A stretch of 20,505 nucleotides of DNA, from positions 1-20,505 of the IMG/VR virus record IMGVR_UViG_3300030098_004834, one strand, 5' to 3'. The stretch's first letter is position 1; each line of letters starts with the position of its first letter. Origin of the DNA: a virus. The notes beneath the pieces are model-generated. The model saw nothing but the letters and a program-made list of their open reading frames with translations, was not told the origin of the DNA and ran no database searches. The position numbers were made by a program, and so were the translations under genes. This document shows positions 8,182 through 20,505 of this stretch, piece after piece.

Positions 8182-9621
8182 CCAGTCTCTAGCATCCTCA
8201 CCAAGCACCTGACTCGCTATGTCTATCTTTGCCCGCAGTGCGGTCAGTATCTTTTCATCTATGGTATCGGGAGAAACTAGGTCAATGTATGTCACCTTGT
8301 TTGGTTGACCTATGCGGTGCGCTCGGTCTTCAGACTGTAGCCGTATCTCCAAGTCGTAAGAGTTACTGTAATAGATAACGGTGGTAGCCGCCGTCAAAGT
8401 AATTCCGTAACCACCGGTCTTTGGTTGACCCACAAAGAAGCGTAGAGGATCTGACTTATTCTGAAACCTATGCACGATATCCTGTCGCTCTTCTTGTGGT
8501 GTACCACCATAATAAGTTGCGACCGCTTCGGGCCCAAAGCGGCCGCGCAAGGCATCAGCAATACGTTGAATGTCGTGTGTATACGTCGCCCAAATTATCG
8601 CCTTACCTTGAACTTCATCAGACAGGTTCATGAGTTCATCAAGCCGGTAGCTTTTAATCTCCTGCATCTCGCCCTCGTCTGGCTGCAAAAACCCGCAGCA
8701 AATCTGTTGCAATCGCATGATCTGTGTCAGAACACTTGTCGTCGTAGCAAGATCCCCACTGTCCATTTGTGCAAGTGCCAACAGCTTCATCTGGTTGTAC
8801 ACGTTCGTCTGTTCGTGAGTCAGAGGAACGACGCGTTTGACGTAGACTTTATCTGGCAGATCCAGACATTCTTCCTTCAATACGCGGTTTGAAAACTCGT
8901 CTAGTTTGTTGGTTAGTTCTTCAAGGCGTTGGTAGCCCACAATTTGTTGAAAGCTACGGTGCCCCATGGTCCGGCGTTGGACTTGTGCATACCGTGCTTG
9001 GAAAGCAAAGTAGCTGTTAAAACCAAGCGCTCTGTCTTTGAGAAAGTCACACTGACTAAACAAATCCATCGGGCTCTTTGTAATAGGAGATCCTGTAAGT
9101 ATGCGACGATACAAAGATCTTTCTCTCAACGCCACAATGTTCTTGGTCCGCAGTGCTTTGCGGTTTTTGATCGTGGTGCTTTCATCGACAATCATCATGT
9201 TCTCAGGGTTTTGAAACAAAAAAGCTTTGGCCGCATCCAAACCCCGTTGCGAACTGAACGCTTCGACATTGATTACAAATATCTTAACGCCCTCAAACTT
9301 TTCGGTAATAAAATCCACAAGGTTTGTATCGTATCGTTTTGATTTGCCAGTCCGCCAAGACATGACTTTCTTTTCGATTCGGTCTGGAAAGTGTGTTTCA
9401 ATCTCACCCTTTGCCCAGTTGTCATACACGCCTTTTGGGGCCACAATCATGGCGGCGTTAATTTTACCAGCTTCAAAAAGCACGGCTATATTATCTATGG
9501 CTACCTTCGATTTTCCTGTCCCCATCTCCATAAAAAGAGCATAATACTCCGCGGCCCACGAATCTTCTAACGCCTTGCGTTGGTGGTCATACGGTCTGGT
9601 TTTGAACTCGAAGTTTAACAT
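8173..9621 (-). CDS. SNF2-type (SF2) DNA helicase/translocase
   Basis: 482 aa on the minus strand, starting at ATG 9621-9619 after a GGGGG-type ribosome site. All core SF2/SNF2 motifs are present: Walker A GTGKS (34-38), motif Ia around 57-75 (IVAPKGVYDNW), motif II DEST (146-149, in place of DEAH), motif III LTGSP (175-179), motif V (GGYGITLTAA) and motif VI QSEDRAHRIGQ (429-439), the last being a SNF2 hallmark. It is the minimal two-RecA-lobe form with no extra nuclease or methyltransferase domain. Phages use such enzymes as ATP-driven dsDNA translocases in replication, recombination or repair; the exact job is unknown. It is the only clear gene on this strand, divergent from the replication operon and convergent with the structural genes, so it is probably expressed early from its own promoter. 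Confidence 0.92.
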   Translation of the reverse strand: MLNFEFKTRPYDHQRKALEDSWAAEYYALFMEMGTGKSKVAIDNIAVLFEAGKINAAMIVAPKGVYDNWAKGEIETHFPDRIEKKVMSWRTGKSKRYDTNLVDFITEKFEGVKIFVINVEAFSSQRGLDAAKAFLFQNPENMMIVDESTTIKNRKALRTKNIVALRERSLYRRILTGSPITKSPMDLFSQCDFLKDRALGFNSYFAFQARYAQVQRRTMGHRSFQQIVGYQRLEELTNKLDEFSNRVLKEECLDLPDKVYVKRVVPLTHEQTNVYNQMKLLALAQMDSGDLATTTSVLTQIMRLQQICCGFLQPDEGEMQEIKSYRLDELMNLSDEVQGKAIIWATYTHDIQRIADALRGRFGPEAVATYYGGTPQEERQDIVHRFQNKSDPLRFFVGQPKTGGYGITLTAATTVIYYSNSYDLEIRLQSEDRAHRIGQPNKVTYIDLVSPDTIDEKILTALRAKIDIASQVLGEDARDWLA

Positions 9622-9644: not shown

Positions 9645-9672
9645 TTGACTTTCTAAGCGTATAAGATATTAT
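9645..9672 (+). promoter_or_regulatory. Sigma70-like promoter of the replication operon
   Basis: TTGACT (9645-9650), a 16-bp spacer and TATTAT (9667-9672), each one base from consensus. Transcription would start near 9679 and give a leader of about 47 nt before the ATG at 9726. It interleaves with the minus-strand promoter described separately. Confidence 0.65.
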
Positions 9673-11134: not shown

Positions 11135-12673
11135 ATGGAAATCGAGAAGTTTGCGTCCATATTCGATGGGCTGAAGGAAGCTTATGGCTACTTCAAAATA
11201 GAAAAGACCGGTGCGAATGGTAAGGCTCAAGGTAAAGCGGGGGTTACACGTGAGCCACGGACCAAAGAGCTTTGGGAAAACCATTTGCTTGGCAACAGTA
11301 TGGGCATTGGTATCATACCAATTAATGAAGACAATTGTTGCAAATGGGGTTGTATAGACATTGATCAGTATCCTTTGGACCACAAAGTTTTGGTGCAAAA
11401 GATACGCAAGTTAAAACTACCACTGGTAGTGTGTCGCTCCAAATCAGGCGGAGCGCACTGCTTTTTGTTTGCCACCGAGTGGGTAGAAGCACGAGACATG
11501 CAGAAAGCACTGCAACACATGTCCTCGGCATTAGGATATGGAGAAAGTGAAATATTTCCAAAGCAAGTTAAATTGCATTTGGACAGAGGCGACGTAGGTA
11601 ACTTTTTAAACTTACCGTACTACGACGCAGAGAATGGATTACGGTATGCTTTTCTTGATGACGGCACATCAGCGTCGATAGACGAGTTTTACGAACTGCA
11701 CGACAAGTACAAGCAAACGCCGGAAGAAGTGGTCAAGTTACAGGTTGTAGGAAATAAAGAGACAGATTTACTTAATGACGGCCCACCGTGTTTACAAATA
11801 CTTTGTAAGGCAAAAATTAGTGAGGGTGGAAGAAATAACGGTTTGTTCAACATTGGTGTTTATTTACGCAAGGCATACCCGGACAGTTGGGAGTCGGAGA
11901 TACTGAAATACAATATGGATTTTTTATCGCCGCCCTTACCCCTGCCAGAGGTAAATGTGGTAGCCAAGCAAGTGGAGCGCAAAGACTACGCGTACAAATG
12001 TTCAGACGCTCCAATCAACGCGCACTGCAACAAGGATCTGTGCCGTACCCGTAAATTCGGCATAGGAGCGGCTGTAGCAGGGGCTACAATCGCGAACCTA
12101 CGCAAGTACAACTCAGTACCGCCTGTGTGGTTTATGGATGTTAACGGAGAGCCTCTGGAGCTAGACACGGAAGCGTTGATGAACCAGATGCAGTTTCAGA
12201 AAGCTTGCATGGAACAATTAAACTTCATGCCACGGTCCATGGCGAAGCAACAATGGGAAAGTCGGATTAGTACATTGCTTACAGAAATGAAAGATAACGA
12301 AAGCGCAATCATTGAGGTAGCACAAGACGCAAGCATCAGCGGTCAGTTCTACGACTACCTTGAAGAGTTCTGTCGTCATCAACAACAGGCACAAGACAAA
12401 GAAGAAATATTATTGCGTCGCCCTTGGACCGACGAAGATTCAGACATAACTTTCTTCAGATTAAAAGATTTTGAAGGGTTTCTTCGCAAAAACAAATTTT
12501 TCGAGTATAAATCCCATAAGATTGCTCAACGCCTTCGGGATATAAATGGCGAGAGTGTTGTTTTGAAAATTAAAGGGAGGGCTGTTAGAGTGTGGCAGAT
12601 ACCATCTTTTGAAAGTGCAGATATGGACTTTACAGTCCCACAGTTTGGATCACAAGGGGAGGCTCCGTTTTGA
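11135..12673 (+). CDS. Archaeo-eukaryotic-type (TOTE-like) DNA primase
   Basis: 512 aa from ATG 11135, preceded at 5 nt by GGGGG (11125-11129); an in-frame ATG at 11123 would add four residues. The AEP catalytic core is clear: WGCIDID (71-77, metal-binding D75 and D77), SKSGGAHCFLF (102-112, the Ser-x-His type motif with H108), EIFPKQ (139-144) and GNFLNLPYY (155-163). This order matches the primase domain described from TOTE conflict systems and found in many phages. A Cys/His cluster (C289, H297, C298, C303) followed by RTRKFGIGA looks like a small zinc-binding element. The C-terminal half is helical with no helicase motifs. It ends in SQGEAPF, shared with the SSB-like protein. It would synthesise primers for the family A polymerase encoded downstream. 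Confidence 0.85.
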   Translation: MEIEKFASIFDGLKEAYGYFKIEKTGANGKAQGKAGVTREPRTKELWENHLLGNSMGIGIIPINEDNCCKWGCIDIDQYPLDHKVLVQKIRKLKLPLVVCRSKSGGAHCFLFATEWVEARDMQKALQHMSSALGYGESEIFPKQVKLHLDRGDVGNFLNLPYYDAENGLRYAFLDDGTSASIDEFYELHDKYKQTPEEVVKLQVVGNKETDLLNDGPPCLQILCKAKISEGGRNNGLFNIGVYLRKAYPDSWESEILKYNMDFLSPPLPLPEVNVVAKQVERKDYAYKCSDAPINAHCNKDLCRTRKFGIGAAVAGATIANLRKYNSVPPVWFMDVNGEPLELDTEALMNQMQFQKACMEQLNFMPRSMAKQQWESRISTLLTEMKDNESAIIEVAQDASISGQFYDYLEEFCRHQQQAQDKEEILLRRPWTDEDSDITFFRLKDFEGFLRKNKFFEYKSHKIAQRLRDINGESVVLKIKGRAVRVWQIPSFESADMDFTVPQFGSQGEAPF

Positions 12674-12855
12674 ACCAAGAACGTAATCAGGAAATCGTGC
12701 GACTGATAGACAAACAACGCATGACCAAAACAGCCGTTGCAAAACGTTACAACGTCTCGAAACAACGTGTGCAACAAATATACAAACGGGAGAAAGCAAG
12801 AGATGTTGAGGATATTCGGACCGCCGGGGACAGGAAAAACAACGACGCTACTTAA
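12670..12855 (+). CDS. Small helix-turn-helix DNA-binding protein
   Basis: 61 aa, starting at TTG 12670, which overlaps the primase stop as TTGA. The start is supported by a strong AGGGGAGG (12655-12662) 7 nt upstream. Residues about 18-44 (MTKTAVAKRYNVSKQRVQQI) form a textbook HTH of the sigma region 4/Mor-like kind: helix, turn at YNVS, and recognition helix SKQRVQQIYKRE. The tail is basic and polar. Its last 53 nt overlap the helicase gene in another frame, so its C-terminus and the helicase Walker A region share DNA. It could be a transcription regulator of the phage or a replication accessory factor; the sequence alone does not decide. Confidence 0.7.
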   Translation: MNQERNQEIVRLIDKQRMTKTAVAKRYNVSKQRVQQIYKREKARDVEDIRTAGDRKNNDAT

Positions 12856-16733: not shown

Positions 16734-16762
16734 TTGCAAACTTGCATATTATCTTATATTAT
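16734..16762 (+). promoter_or_regulatory. Sigma70-like promoter of the RHH gene
   Basis: TTGCAA (16734-16739), a 17-bp spacer and TATTAT (16757-16762), directly after the terminator. The spacer holds TTGCATAT, related to the GCATA element of the neighbouring promoters. A short hairpin CCGAT/ATCGG (16773-16785) in the leader takes up the first two bases of the GGAG ribosome site. Confidence 0.55.
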
Positions 16763-16795
16763 CCTAGAAATACCGATAAAATCGGAGATGGATTT

Positions 16796-17026
16796 ATGGA
16801 TACAACGCGTTGGAAAAGTATTCTCGTACCCAGAGACATGTACGAGGAAGTAAAATTTATGGCAAAAGACGAAGGGCGGACAATATCCGGACAACTTCGC
16901 ATGATTTTTGAGGATCACAAAGACAGGAAGAGGAGTGATGCAGTATCAGACGGAGGCGGGGGAGATACACAGAAGGCTCGTGCAGAATACTTGCCCCAAG
17001 TGTCAGGCTCCACTGGAAGTAGTTGA
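16796..17026 (+). CDS. Small ribbon-helix-helix-like protein
   Basis: 76 aa from ATG 16796; GGAG (16784-16787) is 8 nt upstream. The open frame continues further 5' but that part runs through the terminator and promoter and is rejected. Residues 5-42 (WKSILVPRDMYEEVKFMAK, then EGRTISGQLRMIFEDH) fit an Arc/MetJ/CopG ribbon-helix-helix: a short strand ending in Pro, helix A, the turn DEGRTISG and helix B. Such proteins dimerise and bind short repeated DNA sites, usually their own promoters. The C-terminal 30 residues are polar, Gly/Ser-rich and encoded in DNA shared with the next gene, so probably unstructured. It is a candidate regulator for the small promoters in this cassette. Confidence 0.65.
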   Translation: MDTTRWKSILVPRDMYEEVKFMAKDEGRTISGQLRMIFEDHKDRKRSDAVSDGGGGDTQKARAEYLPQVSGSTGSS

Positions 17027-17126
17027 AAGAACTGACGAAATACTGATTCGTAAATGTGGCCCTTGTCTGCTAACCATACATGATGAAGCAGACAAAGCGG
17101 AAGGCATTGAGCATATATGCGATTAA
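16938..17126 (+). CDS. Small zinc-ribbon protein
   Basis: 62 aa from ATG 16938, with the purine-rich AGGAAGAGGAG just upstream; GTG 16935 is an alternative start. CPKC (19-22) and CGPC (50-53) flank a 27-residue stretch of short strands, a typical zinc-ribbon layout, with an acidic tail ending in HICD. It overlaps the 3' end of the RHH gene by 89 bp in another frame, so the two are co-transcribed and probably coupled. I do not recognise a specific family. Zinc ribbons of this size in phages often bind nucleic acid or host RNA polymerase, which is only a suggestion here. Confidence 0.65.
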   Translation: MQYQTEAGEIHRRLVQNTCPKCQAPLEVVERTDEILIRKCGPCLLTIHDEADKAEGIEHICD

Positions 17127-17158
17127 GTATTGCATATCGCATACATATGGTGTACTAT
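17116..17158 (+). promoter_or_regulatory. Sigma70-like promoter with inverted TATGCGA/TCGCATA operator
   Basis: TTGCAT (17130-17135), 17-bp spacer, TACTAT (17153-17158). Around the -35 box lies a perfect 7-bp inverted repeat, TATGCGA (17116-17122) and TCGCATA (17137-17143), whose arm centres are 21 bp apart, two helical turns. The right arm extends to TCGCATAC, the element shared with the promoters at 17651 and 19807. A palindrome GCATATATGC (17111-17120) overlaps the left arm. Confidence 0.55.
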
Positions 17159-17165
17159 TCGCTTA

Positions 17166-17228
17166 GTGTCCCCCTCCATGGACACCTTCGTAGTTGAAAG
17201 CCCCAGTTCGGTTGCCCCCGACTGGGGC
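17166..17228 (+). promoter_or_regulatory. Structured 5' leader with two hairpins
   Basis: Downstream of the promoter, GTGTCC (17166-17171) pairs with GGACAC (17180-17185), and GCCCCAGT (17200-17207) pairs with ACTGGGGC (17221-17228), extended inward by CGG/CCG past a bulged T. The weakly T-rich ACTTTCGTT that follows makes the second stem a possible attenuator but not a good terminator. Confidence 0.45.
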
Positions 17229-17250
17229 ACTTTCGTTCGAGGAGATAAAT

Positions 17251-17400
17251 ATGAAAAATAAAGAAGCAGTGGCAATCATGCAAAAATTTGTAAATGATTA
17301 TATGGATCTTATAGAAAAAGATGATACTCTGACCCCAGAGCAACGCAAGCAGAAGGTAGATGCCCTTGAAAAAGCGTGGCAATGTATACTTAACAGATGA
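17251..17400 (+). CDS. Small helical protein of unknown function
   Basis: 49 aa. ATG 17251 is chosen for the excellent AGGAG (17240-17244) 6 nt upstream, at the end of a structured leader with its own promoter; the frame stays open upstream but runs through the hairpin. The protein is acidic and helical throughout (MQKFVNDYMDLIEKDD, then TPEQRKQKVDALEKAWQCIL), looking like two amphipathic helices around a Thr-Pro cap. I do not recognise it. The next gene starts inside its 3' end, so both are on one transcript. Confidence 0.65.
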   Translation: MKNKEAVAIMQKFVNDYMDLIEKDDTLTPEQRKQKVDALEKAWQCILNR

Positions 17401-17647
17401 AGAGTCCGCGCATCACGATTTCTTTGATGCATGCGACATGACCATAGAATTACTCAACGAGTTCGAAGCTAGAGGCATGTTGAAGGGCCCTGCTATGGGC
17501 GGAGCTATGACTCAACTGCTATCTCATCTTATAGACATATCTCCCGACCCACGGACCGTGAGCGAGATAATCGCAAGCTGTTTGTCGAATGCCGCGTACA
17601 ATGCAGAAAGTGCAATTACCCACGAAGGTAATGACCAAATACATTAG
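17360..17647 (+). CDS. Small phage protein of unknown function
   Basis: 95 aa from ATG 17360, overlapping the previous gene by 41 bp. The ribosome site (AAGG at 17353-17356) is weak and close, so translation probably depends on coupling. The N-terminus is basic (PLKKRGNVYL), followed by an acidic helical part (TDEESAHHDFFDACDMTIELLNEFEARGML, given here in outline) and a hydrophobic helix (GGAMTQLLSHLIDI). No family recognised. The His/Asp-rich HHDFFDACD could bind metal, but nothing else supports this. Confidence 0.6.
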   Translation: MPLKKRGNVYLTDEESAHHDFFDACDMTIELLNEFEARGMLKGPAMGGAMTQLLSHLIDISPDPRTVSEIIASCLSNAAYNAESAITHEGNDQIH

Positions 17648-17650
17648 CTA

Positions 17651-17678
17651 TTGACTTAGTCGCATACTTTCCTATATA
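17651..17678 (+). promoter_or_regulatory. Sigma70-like promoter with TCGCATAC in the spacer
   Basis: TTGACT (17651-17656), 16-bp spacer and TATATA (17673-17678); TATACT at 17675-17680 is an alternative -10 box with 18-bp spacing. The spacer contains TCGCATAC (17660-17667) at the same distance from the -35 box as in the promoter at 19807. It drives the 358-aa gene; the leader is about 25 nt. Confidence 0.65.
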
Positions 17679-17709
17679 CTTCCAGTATTCAACTATGGAG
17701 GTATGAAGG

Positions 17710-18786
17710 ATGGGTAGAAAGCGATCTGCTAAAGCAACAGGAAGCGGTCTTAAGGAGATTCCATCAAGTGAAAATCTTTCTTTAGGTGAACGTTTAAGTT
17801 ATATGGATAGATCTAAAAGAGGAATTGTAACACACAGTGGGCGTGGTCATGGACGAAGCACATCACATGGGCGTGGTAAACGGTCTACCAATCAACCGAC
17901 AAGACGGGAAATGCTTTACTTTGTACGAGACATAGTGAGGAACCTTAGAGAAGCTCCCGACAGGCAAATACCTAAAAACACGTTAAAAGCAACAACTCAT
18001 GACTTTGCAAACGTTTTAGCAAGAGACGTTCAATTTTTTGATTGCAGTGAATTAACCGATTACATTGAAAGCAATTGGCATGAAATGTATCCCGATAGAC
18101 AGGTTCCTGTCAGTCCCAAAGTAATATTGCCCGCTCCGGCGGTTGGACTGTATGTAAACAACGTGCCCGATTTTGATCCTCATACTGAAGAACCAGACGG
18201 AACTTTTGGAGAAGTTATGTTTGTTTGTACGCCTCGTGCAAATAGCGGAAGCACCACAAATTTTTCAATTGTTCTTATTTCGCGCAACTTAGATCACAGT
18301 ACAACGGACGCATCTTTAAGTATTCTTGGGACTATTGATAGCGGAAAAGGTGTTTTTGGTATCAGTCCTAAAAATAAAAATGAAGACTTCTCGTCTAGAA
18401 ATTCAAGGTCTTTAAGAATAGTTGCAGCTTATCTACAAACCATAAACAATCCGCGGTTTGTAAGACGCGGTAAAAAAACCTTTAGTCAAATGAAAAAACA
18501 GAGCGCTAAAAAAGTTCTTCGCGACTTTATAGCAGAGCAATGGAACATGGTTTCGTGGAACGTCGATAAAGCTGTTGATGCCAAAAACTACGAAGAGGGA
18601 AATGGAGGCCGACAGGGTTTGCATTTTAGACGCGGGTTCTTTCGACGCGGCGAATCTCACTGGCAGAATGTTCAAATGATCGACGGCGTCTGGAGACAAT
18701 GGATAGAAGGCTACGAAGCCGGACACCCCGCTTTTGGTGTTAAGAAAAGCTACCACCTACCACGTATCAAGGGAGAAAATAAATGA
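17710..18786 (+). CDS. Basic phage protein of unknown function with Arg/Gly/His-rich N-terminus
   Basis: 358 aa from ATG 17710 (GGAGG at 17697-17701, 8 nt upstream). The first 65 residues are very basic with Ser/Gly/His, including THSGRGHGRSTSHGRGKR, a duplicated HGRG-type motif encoded by a 10-base direct repeat (TGGGCGTGGT at 17838 and 17868). This resembles RGG-type nucleic-acid-binding tails. The middle is mixed alpha/beta (VMFVCTPRANSGST, FSIVLISRNL). The C-terminus is again basic and aromatic (LHFRRGFFRRGESHWQNVQ, then WRQWIEGYEAGH), a pattern I recall from the C-termini of several uncharacterised phage and plasmid proteins. It has its own promoter and leads a run of small genes. A DNA- or RNA-binding role is likely by composition; the function is unknown. 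Confidence 0.8.
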   Translation: MGRKRSAKATGSGLKEIPSSENLSLGERLSYMDRSKRGIVTHSGRGHGRSTSHGRGKRSTNQPTRREMLYFVRDIVRNLREAPDRQIPKNTLKATTHDFANVLARDVQFFDCSELTDYIESNWHEMYPDRQVPVSPKVILPAPAVGLYVNNVPDFDPHTEEPDGTFGEVMFVCTPRANSGSTTNFSIVLISRNLDHSTTDASLSILGTIDSGKGVFGISPKNKNEDFSSRNSRSLRIVAAYLQTINNPRFVRRGKKTFSQMKKQSAKKVLRDFIAEQWNMVSWNVDKAVDAKNYEEGNGGRQGLHFRRGFFRRGESHWQNVQMIDGVWRQWIEGYEAGHPAFGVKKSYHLPRIKGENK

Positions 18787-18992
18787 TGGATGATAGAGTT
18801 TGTTTATTTTATGTCGCTGACCGTTTACAAGATATAGTAGACAAAGAAAGCACGGCAGAGGAGTTTTTAAGGGAAATCAACCACAATATCGGCGTAAATG
18901 CCCGATGGAAACGCAATAACCCCGACGCATTAGTCGCGGACCTACCACCCATAAAGCCCGCAAAGCGCGGCCGTAAACCTAAAAGGAGTTAA
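18783..18992 (+). CDS. Small protein with AT-hook-like C-terminus
   Basis: 69 aa. The start overlaps the preceding stop (ATGATGG; ATG 18783 or 18786), with GGGAG about 8 nt upstream. The N-terminal half is acidic and helical (LFYVADRLQDIVDKESTAEEF). The last dozen residues, KPAKRGRKPKRS, match the core of an AT-hook (Arg-Gly-Arg-Lys/Pro flanked by basic residues), which binds the minor groove of AT-rich DNA. No family recognised. It lies two bases upstream of the AlpA-like gene and is on the same transcript. Confidence 0.7.
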   Translation: MMDDRVCLFYVADRLQDIVDKESTAEEFLREINHNIGVNARWKRNNPDALVADLPPIKPAKRGRKPKRS

Positions 18993-18994
18993 AC

Positions 18995-19339
18995 ATGGCA
19001 AAGCAGTATCTAAAAATAGAACAAGTCGCGGAAATGACCGGACTGTCTGAACAAACCATCTACCGCCGCTCACGGCTCAAGACCTTTCCACCACCCGTAG
19101 ATTCAATGTATGTTCCAGAAAAACTAAAAAACAAAAAGCACTGGGCTAAAACAGAAATATCCAAATGGGTAAAAGAAAATGCCGTCGAACCAAAAGTCGT
19201 AAAGCTAGAGCCCAAGGAACAGGGCAAAGCTGAAGCTGACGACGCACAAGTCCTCGGCATTATGAAAGACGAAACCGTCATACGGCCCGCGTTCCACAAA
19301 CGACTAATAGATTACATCATGAAATGGTTTAAGCGGTGA
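18995..19339 (+). CDS. AlpA/excisionase-like HTH regulator
   Basis: 114 aa, ATG 18995 with AAAAGGAG (18979-18986) upstream. Residues 5-32 (YLKIEQVAEMTGLSEQTIYR) and the Trp-Ala-Lys-Thr-Glu-Ile-Ser-Lys-Trp (WAKTEISKWV, about 50-59) give the winged-helix layout of AlpA/MerR-type (HTH_17) proteins: a helix-turn-helix, a Pro-rich loop (FPPPV) and a closing Trp-containing helix. The long charged linker (60-90) and amphipathic C-terminal helix (HKRLIDYIMKWFKR) are beyond the usual AlpA length of about 70 and may mediate oligomerisation. AlpA relatives activate or repress prophage genes or act as excisionases. No integrase gene is nearby, so transcriptional control is the better guess. Confidence 0.8.
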   Translation: MAKQYLKIEQVAEMTGLSEQTIYRRSRLKTFPPPVDSMYVPEKLKNKKHWAKTEISKWVKENAVEPKVVKLEPKEQGKAEADDAQVLGIMKDETVIRPAFHKRLIDYIMKWFKR

Positions 19340-19575
19340 TTGAATATTTCACCGCCCTTGTCATTGCATATACCTTGCATGGTCATGACATTGAAACAGC
19401 CGTATGGTTCGAGAGCGAGAAGCATTGCTCACGGGCCATGGAAAACAGAAGTGCAGATTTTATGTACGATTATTTGTTTGACTTGTATGGCCATGACATT
19501 TCGATGGGTTGCTACACAACAGATAAAGTGTCAAAGTTGATCAAACCAAAACCGCGACCAGAAAGGATCGACTGA
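19336..19575 (+). CDS. Small phage protein of unknown function with hydrophobic N-terminus
   Basis: 79 aa starting at GTG 19336 in a GTGA overlap with the preceding stop; no good ribosome site, so coupling is assumed. The first 15 residues (MIEYFTALVIAYTLHG) are hydrophobic and could be a membrane anchor or a buried strand-helix. The remainder is polar with two HDI motifs (GHDIE near 17-21, GHDIS near 52-56) and two Cys (C31 and C59), ending in the Pro/Lys-rich KPKPRPERID. I recall short phage proteins of similar design but no function. Confidence 0.65.
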   Translation: MIEYFTALVIAYTLHGHDIETAVWFESEKHCSRAMENRSADFMYDYLFDLYGHDISMGCYTTDKVSKLIKPKPRPERID

Positions 19576-19787
19576 TGGCAACCATTAGAAAAATTAAAAA
19601 AGATGGCGGACTGCCCGATTACTATTACATCATGCCAAACAAGGATCGAATCGACATCATGGTGGTTCGATCCAAAAACTCAGGAAACCAGTACACTTGC
19701 GTACTGCCCGCGCCTCACTTCTCGAAGACGTTCAACAAGATGAACGAAATGCGGGCATACTTCGATGAGCATTTTGAGTCGGCTTGA
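19575..19787 (+). CDS. Small phage protein of unknown function
   Basis: 70 aa; the stop of the previous gene and this start form TGATG, and AAGGA (19563-19567) is 7 nt upstream. It is basic and beta-rich at the N-terminus (MATIRKIKKDGGLPDYYYIMP), with a strand (DIMVVRS) and a C-terminal helix (FNKMNEMRAYFDEHF). No family recognised. It is the last gene of the transcript that begins at the promoter at 17651. Confidence 0.7.
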   Translation: MATIRKIKKDGGLPDYYYIMPNKDRIDIMVVRSKNSGNQYTCVLPAPHFSKTFNKMNEMRAYFDEHFESA

Positions 19788-19806
19788 AATTTCTAAAAAT
19801 TTAATG

Positions 19807-19835
19807 TTGACATTATCGCATACTCGTGTTATAAT
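19807..19835 (+). promoter_or_regulatory. Perfect-consensus sigma70 promoter with TCGCATAC element
   Basis: TTGACA (19807-19812), a 17-bp spacer and TATAAT (19830-19835): both boxes and the spacing match the bacterial consensus exactly, and TGT before the -10 box adds an extended -10. The spacer holds TCGCATAC (19816-19823). Such strength usually needs a repressor to keep it in check, and the shared element is the obvious candidate operator. Confidence 0.88.
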
Positions 19836-19928: not shown

Positions 19929-20186
19929 ATGTCAAAACGCATTTGGATTGAACTCGATAAAGCCGAAAACTTTGAAGAGGCAAAAGAAAATTGTGAACTT
20001 GCTAATAAGTTAATTCACAAGTTAGGTGTACCAAAAGACGCGAAATTTTTTGCAGTTAAAGAACAAAAGTACACAAATACCTTTTACAATTATACATCGA
20101 GTTACCAATCCGGTTTTACAGAACTGGATGATCGTGGCACTTGGTTCGATTTGGAATATCTTGCAAATCATGAAGGACAGGAATAA
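19929..20186 (+). CDS. Small acidic phage protein of unknown function
   Basis: 85 aa, ATG 19929 with a strong GGAGGAA (19919-19925). The sequence is helical in the first half (KAENFEEAKENCELANKLIHKLG) and aromatic/polar in the second (NTFYNYTSSYQSGF, then DDRGTWFDLEYLA). Net acidic, no signal or motif. It is driven by the strongest promoter in the window, so it is expected to be made in quantity, perhaps early after infection, as with host-takeover proteins of other phages; this is inference from the promoter only. Confidence 0.7.
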   Translation: MSKRIWIELDKAENFEEAKENCELANKLIHKLGVPKDAKFFAVKEQKYTNTFYNYTSSYQSGFTELDDRGTWFDLEYLANHEGQE

Positions 20187-20428: not shown

Positions 20429-20498
20429 ACACCGGTTATATTATATAGAGAGAAAAATAAAAAAAATATTTTTTGTAAAAATATGCCGTAACCGGTGT
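20429..20498. repeat. 10-bp inverted repeat flanking an AT-rich palindromic core
   Basis: ACACCGGTTA (20429-20438) and its exact reverse complement TAACCGGTGT (20489-20498) bracket about 50 bp with very few G or C. Near the centre is a perfect 14-bp palindrome, A6-TA-T6 (20461-20474). TAACCG recurs at 20498-20503, giving a 9-bp spaced direct repeat with 20489-20494. No gene is visible from 20428 to the window end. Confidence 0.65.
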
Positions 20499-20505
20499 AA
20501 CCGTG

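Follow-up and report, generated by a model that had tools for sequence, protein, structure and literature searches.

A phased operator-like repeat in the promoters of uncultured aquatic phages, probably read by a small RHH protein

Why should one short word recur inside several promoters of a phage genome, and which protein might read it? The window (the whole stretch of DNA analysed here) is a 20.5-kb viral contig that carries a replication operon (primase, UvrD-type helicase and PolA) and a gene for an SNF2 helicase, with a short gene for a ribbon-helix-helix (RHH) protein sitting right after polA. A first-pass annotation had pointed to the 8-mer TCGCATAC between the -35 and -10 boxes of several promoters, and had suggested that a small DNA-binding protein encoded in the window controls a regulon through it. 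Our analysis indicates that TCGCATAC is one form of a predicted operator unit of approximately 10 bp, tTATC(G/C/T)(C/T)ATA(C/T), and that repeats of this unit appear to occupy nearly all promoters in a large group of uncultured aquatic phages. We consider it quite likely that the units are read by the small RHH protein, acting as an autoregulated repressor of the Arc/omega/F55 type over host sigma-70 promoters throughout the phage genome.

The window contains four copies of TCGCATAC versus 0.52 expected, a number that was reached in 0 of 100 dinucleotide shuffles. As annotated, three copies are on the plus strand (17137-17144, 17660-17667 and 19816-19823) and one is on the minus strand (9099-9106); the window has no others, and three of the four are intergenic. 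Several finer observations also hold. In two promoters the first base of the 8-mer lies 9 bp downstream of the first base of the -35 box (TTGACT from 17651 and TTGACA from 19807), the TATGCGA/TCGCATA inverted repeat is perfect (17116-17122 and 17137-17143, with 7-mer centres 21 bp apart), and the related word TTGCATAT at the fourth promoter is located at 16742-16749. The description of the promoters as near-consensus is accurate for the one at 19807, which alone matches at 12 of 12 positions, but not for the one at 17137, which is weak (TTGCAT-17-TACTAT) and absent from the list produced by a promoter scan. Moreover, that scan found 18 promoters in the window versus 16.7 in shuffles, which is no excess. 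Therefore, the promoter reading required outside evidence.

The set of sites that had been collected by eye was correct in its four copies but incomplete, since it lacked a reversed fifth member at 9658-9669 and the 10-bp direct repeats at 16739/16749/16759 and 17657/17667. The core letters of the unit vary, and for this reason TTGCATAT had seemed merely related and the repeats had gone unseen. For a similar reason, a search for TCGCATAC that allows one mismatch masks the signal (14 matches versus 11.3 expected), because the true unit has particular variable positions. The copy at 9099-9106 was rejected as a member of the regulon. It sits in the coding DNA of the SNF2 gene, and because coding sites at its score (about 0.25 per kb) are at chance level, we judge it a chance match.

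A direct DNA search of a phage collection gave no near match to the window among deposited phages, and the order of its replication operon and SNF2 helicase gene matches that of DSL-LC04 and HTVC023P-type phages. Outside evidence is available from 80 viral contigs whose PolA is 73-98% identical to that of the window. These relatives share ancestry; identical or near-identical contexts were counted once, but the statistics ignore phylogeny; gene calls are simple open-frame calls, and E-values and shuffles bear on chance rather than on function. In the window and its 80 relatives, ATCGCATA is the top intergenically enriched 8-mer besides A/T runs, with 83 intergenic copies versus 9.6 expected from its coding frequency. 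Two of the refuting conditions set for the original proposal, on frequency in promoters relative to coding DNA and on conservation in related phages, were checked, and both outcomes favor it: the element is strongly intergenic and it is conserved in the relatives. The RHH promoters were held out of an EM motif search over 481 de-replicated intergenic pieces, which returned ttATCnYATAta (approximately 288 sites, 11.3 bits) as the best motif besides A/T runs. Models of A/T runs had the highest EM likelihoods but were excluded as low-complexity sequence, which left this motif as the best specific one. In the form tTATC(N)YATA(Y), it is the main non-low-complexity intergenic motif found de novo in the roughly 80 related contigs. 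The outer arms of TATC-N-YATA mirror each other about the centre, a layout that would fit binding by a dimer with two-fold symmetry and would account for use of the unit in both orientations.

Spacing between units is sharply phased. Pairs in the same orientation lie at exactly 10 bp in 57 cases and at 20 bp in 10 cases, with 0-4 pairs at any other distance. Divergent pairs have peaks at 10 bp (15) and 20 bp (13) only, and convergent pairs lack a comparable distance peak. The inverted repeat of the window (17114/17134) belongs to the 20-bp divergent class. When whole sequences of the clade are counted, RHH promoters included, there are 136 same-strand pairs at 10 bp versus 80 over twenty other distances. 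HTVC023P, HTVC027P, 023Pt_psg01 and DSL-LC04, in which the RHH protein is diverged or missing, have 0-1 ten-bp pairs each. Units are single, in 10-bp tandem or divergent at 10 or 20 bp, and would therefore lie on roughly one face of the helix.

The units are also locked to promoter geometry. Hexamers resembling a -35 box are enriched at offsets of -6 (24 versus 1.4), -16 (21 versus 1.6) and -15 (17 versus 1.7) from the unit, and reversed units have TTGACA-like hexamers at a few other discrete offsets. In these putative sigma-70-type promoters, a unit is found in the spacer between the -35 and -10 boxes, on the -10 box, or on both, at fixed registers. Given that the unit contains ATA, the promoter sequence itself could account for some of the signal at -10 boxes. 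One promoter class (L005-L084; examples are L012 14868, L025 13114 and L058 17303) has a second conserved element, CTTGATNTGTCC, some 15-20 bp upstream of a tandem pair of units.

The promoters, predicted operator units and candidate regulator genes of the window are as follows.

9645-9672, plus strand: replication-operon promoter TTGACT-16-TATTAT (genes from 9726 on), read from the sequence
9658-9669, minus strand: reversed operator unit ATATCTTATACG, also GTATAAGATA at 9658-9669, 11.3 bits, in the spacer of the replication-operon promoter
12670-12855: sigma-like HTH protein, rival regulator candidate
16734-16762, plus strand: RHH gene promoter TTGCAA-17-TATTAT, from sequence and promoter scan
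16739-16750, plus strand: unit 1 of the RHH promoter, AACTTGCATATT, 7.3 bits, in the spacer
16749-16760, plus strand: unit 2 of the RHH promoter, TTATCTTATATT, 12.7 bits, overlapping the -10 box
16759-16770, plus strand: unit 3 of the RHH promoter, TTATCCTAGAAA, 7.8 bits, from the end of the -10 box onward downstream
16796-17026, plus strand: RHH gene, 76 aa, MDTTRWKSILVP...GRTISGQLR, proposed repressor
17114-17125, minus strand: left, reversed arm of the inverted operator, TAATCGCATATA, 15.6 bits, overlapping the end of gene 16938-17126
17134-17145, plus strand: right arm of the inverted operator, ATATCGCATACA, 15.7 bits, including the 17137 copy of TCGCATAC
17130-17158, plus strand: weak promoter TTGCAT-17-TACTAT spanning the right arm, read from the sequence and below the scan threshold
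17651-17680, plus strand: promoter TTGACT-18-TATACT of gene 17710-18786, from the promoter scan
17657-17668, plus strand: unit TAGTCGCATACT, 13.3 bits, -6 register, including the 17660 copy of TCGCATAC
17667-17678, plus strand: unit CTTTCCTATATA, 9.4 bits, 10 bp past TAGTCGCATACT, over the -10 box, register -16
18995-19339: AlpA-like protein, rival regulator candidate
19807-19835, plus strand: consensus promoter TTGACA-17-TATAAT upstream of gene 19929-20186, from the promoter scan, 12/12
19813-19824, plus strand: unit TTATCGCATACT, 15.5 bits, -6 register, including the 19816 copy of TCGCATAC

The window has six intergenic gaps of more than 40 bp, and five of them carry a unit of at least 11.3 bits, each inside a promoter; the sixth, which follows a terminator at the contig end, has no unit at that score. 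A site at the place matching 9658 is also present in the relatives G014, G015 and G016. Four long relatives (44-60 kb) extend the picture. They carry sites in the small-gene stretch that separates polA from the terminases, immediately ahead of the gene for the large terminase and in the vicinity of the GroES/capsid region. In three of these four a site precedes the replication operon, and genes within that operon have sites in only 0-3% of cases. Gene 16938-17126, which overlaps the end of the RHH gene, codes for a small zinc-ribbon protein (Zn_ribbon_TFIIB model, E=1.7e-5, above the cut-off).

The units are most concentrated at the promoter of the RHH gene itself. Among the promoters held out of the motif search, 94% of 54 distinct examples have a site of at least 7 bits versus 15% after shuffling, and these promoters include 42 unit pairs at 10 bp and 14 at 20 bp. 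A separate scan for RHH genes yielded 29 further distinct promoters, 24 of which have a site of at least 8 bits (2.6 in shuffles), with 19 pairs at 10 bp versus 0.01 in shuffles. The RHH promoters of L032, L147, L181 and L186 are without sites. Short phased units that overlap the regulator's own promoter are a feature shared with tandem-operator autorepressors of the omega, MetJ and F55 kind, in which the RHH protein would be a candidate member. The sequences themselves show the operator code, how it is phased, that it is locked to promoters and that it is concentrated at this gene.

The RHH protein matches the Pfam RHH_5 model with E=1.5e-5 and 25 bits, just under the cut-off of 26, which its homologue in L038 passes at 28. 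Its predicted structure (monomer) has an extended N-terminus followed by helices at residues 13-26 and 30-51, with block-mean pLDDT values of 91-95 over residues 11-40. The strand of an RHH protein forms only in the dimer. Foldseek searches with the model returned CdbA, CopG, Arc, AmrZ and AvtR, and the top hits are nearly all RHH proteins, with E-values of 0.1 or worse. By profile, the nearest solved structure is 1u9p (E=6e-5), an engineered single-chain Arc, and Arc itself follows with E of about 0.009. The protein was not filed as Arc/Mnt proper, with 13.1 bits against the Pfam Arc cut-off of 20.4 and 17.5 bits for the best homologue. Across 36 diverse members the strand region hardly varies: M1, D2, K7, S8 and P12 are the same in all and W6 in nearly all. 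Such constancy would be expected if the proteins kept to a single operator sequence.

Profile searches detect the RHH protein in nearly all relatives, and in diverged form in HTVC023P, HTVC027P and 023Pt_psg01; a protein search of the phage collection with the RHH sequence gave no match. RHH homologues, most with similar promoters, also occur in six bacterial metagenome bins (L192-L197) assigned to Verrucomicrobiales, Pirellulaceae, Maricaulis, Rhodobacteraceae, Flavobacteriaceae and Burkholderiales. These loci are possibly stray phage contigs.

The earlier proposal left the choice of regulator among RHH, AlpA-like and HTH proteins. Its core, a repeated operator serving the regulon of one small DNA-binding protein, is supported by an element that is conserved, intergenic and locked to promoter geometry, and the choice can now be narrowed. 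The RHH gene is present in 41 of 41 loci that reach at least 3 kb past polA and has the best-furnished promoter. In the same loci the AlpA-like gene is found in 4 of 41 and the sigma-like HTH gene in 15 of 41, the latter count being a lower bound because this gene lies upstream of polA, beyond some loci. On the basis of this universal presence, the autoregulatory type of promoter and the known habits of RHH proteins, the RHH protein is most likely the regulator.

It is distinctly unlikely, in our view, that another phage DNA-binding protein reads the operators and that the RHH gene is merely one of its targets. In favor of the AlpA-like protein, AlpA-family and excisionase-type proteins bind short direct repeats, and AlpA homologues in the relatives have sites upstream in 5 of 7 cases. 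However, a regulator of this type is not present wherever the operator is, and the sigma-like HTH gene lies inside the replication operon, where internal genes are nearly devoid of sites. A phage regulator encoded outside the window, or beyond the ends of the relatives' contigs, would also fall under this explanation.

There is very little chance that the element is a part of the promoter core, such as an extended -10 or a site recognised by a phage sigma factor or by an activator like MotA, rather than a repressor site. The fixed registers to the -35 box and the overlap with the -10 box in RHH promoters are what such an element would offer, but units occur in both orientations relative to transcription (reversed at 9658 and in the replication-operon promoters of relatives), form tandem and divergent arrays, and are found even inside a promoter that already matches the sigma-70 consensus at 12 of 12 positions. 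Least plausible of all is that phage promoters captured the signal of a host regulator. Phages do use such proteins, for example CtrA in alphaproteobacterial phages (PMC9437464), but the motif tracks the phage clade together with its RHH gene. The nearest cultured relatives do not have it, and its density is highest at the RHH gene of the phage.

In its presumed mode of action, the favored RHH regulator comes closest to three known systems, Arc, omega and F55. Arc of phage P22 is likewise a small phage-encoded RHH protein and is the nearest by structure profile. It binds an operator between the -35 and -10 boxes and represses its own transcript. However, Arc acts at one short control region through an operator of paired half-sites, whereas the units described here form a 10-bp tandem series at promoters genome-wide. 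The omega protein, or ParB, of pSM19035 places RHH dimers, one per short non-palindromic unit, on consecutive repeats that overlap several promoters, including that of its own gene (PMC9499535). Omega differs in using 7-bp WATCACW units in runs of 7-10 and in being a partition protein as well, whereas the present units are spaced at 10 bp in runs of 1-3 and belong to phages. F55 of Sulfolobus virus SSV1 is an RHH protein that works as a switch governed by its own concentration, through tandem repeats at early-gene promoters and at the promoter of its own gene (PMC5569661). The likeness is that of a viral RHH protein with tandem repeats at its own promoter, and SvtR and AvtR are named as kin; the virus and its promoters are archaeal, however, and the F55 repeat ATAGATAG differs from the present unit. 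The nearest cultured phages, HTVC023P-type pelagiphages and DSL-LC04, share the replication gene order and have PolA at 50-57% identity, and HTVC023P gp13 is a diverged relative of the RHH protein, but these phages lack the motif in their promoters and its 10-bp pairs. The papers examined on this cultured group do not discuss a promoter motif or RHH repressor, and the literature searched contained no RHH operators in marine phages.

We infer both the binding and the direction of regulation in the following model. One dimer of the 16796-17026 product would bind each operator unit, dimers on neighbouring units would cooperate along the helix face, and bound dimers would exclude host RNA polymerase. 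The RHH gene would be under negative autoregulation through its three-unit promoter, and as the protein accumulates it would shut down or delay other phage promoters, namely those of the replication operon and the small-gene region and, in relatives, the promoters that precede the large terminase gene or lie in the GroES/capsid region. F55 serves to maintain lysogeny, but a search of nine contigs of the present clade, which are possibly incomplete, detected no tyrosine integrase. Because of this result, an Arc-like throttle during lytic growth is favored over a lysogeny switch. That control is negative is not certain, since some RHH proteins, AmrZ among them, also act as activators.

Two other elements deserve mention. 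Perfect parS-like palindromes, GTTTCACGTGAAAC and GTTCCACGTGGAAC, which resemble ParB sites, occur in relatives outside the window at these positions:

L010 13822-13858
L012 19243-19279
L203 8469-8506
L208 10230-10267
L005 10012 and 10263

They are often paired at about 23 bp beside a ATCGCATA operator; those of L203 and L208 are upstream of the large terminase gene. In addition, a direct repeat, GGTTACACC/GGTTACGGC, is located beside an A/T-rich tract at 20475-20505 (minus strand) of the window. It is kept in at least 12 relatives, near the small terminase gene where mapped, and resembles origin iterons or a packaging site.

What began as an observation by eye has thus become a predicted regulator-operator pair with its regulon, in a phage group that is widespread and mostly uncultured and on whose gene control nothing was found in the papers examined. 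At its most ambitious, the idea would make one RHH protein of 45-76 residues the master timer of the whole infection programme, acting in a large clade of uncultured phages through a helical-turn code of 10-bp units, read in either orientation, at almost every promoter; because parS-like sites adjoin operators near the terminase gene, the arrays may also serve genome handling, as with omega. We regard this extended version as improbable. More immediately, the motif is usable to locate early or accessory genes; an approach based on regulatory sequences has uncovered anti-defence genes in archaeal viruses (PMC11065993). Finally, the co-variation of RHH proteins and their predicted operators over many genomes may provide a natural data set on the evolution of beta-strand recognition.
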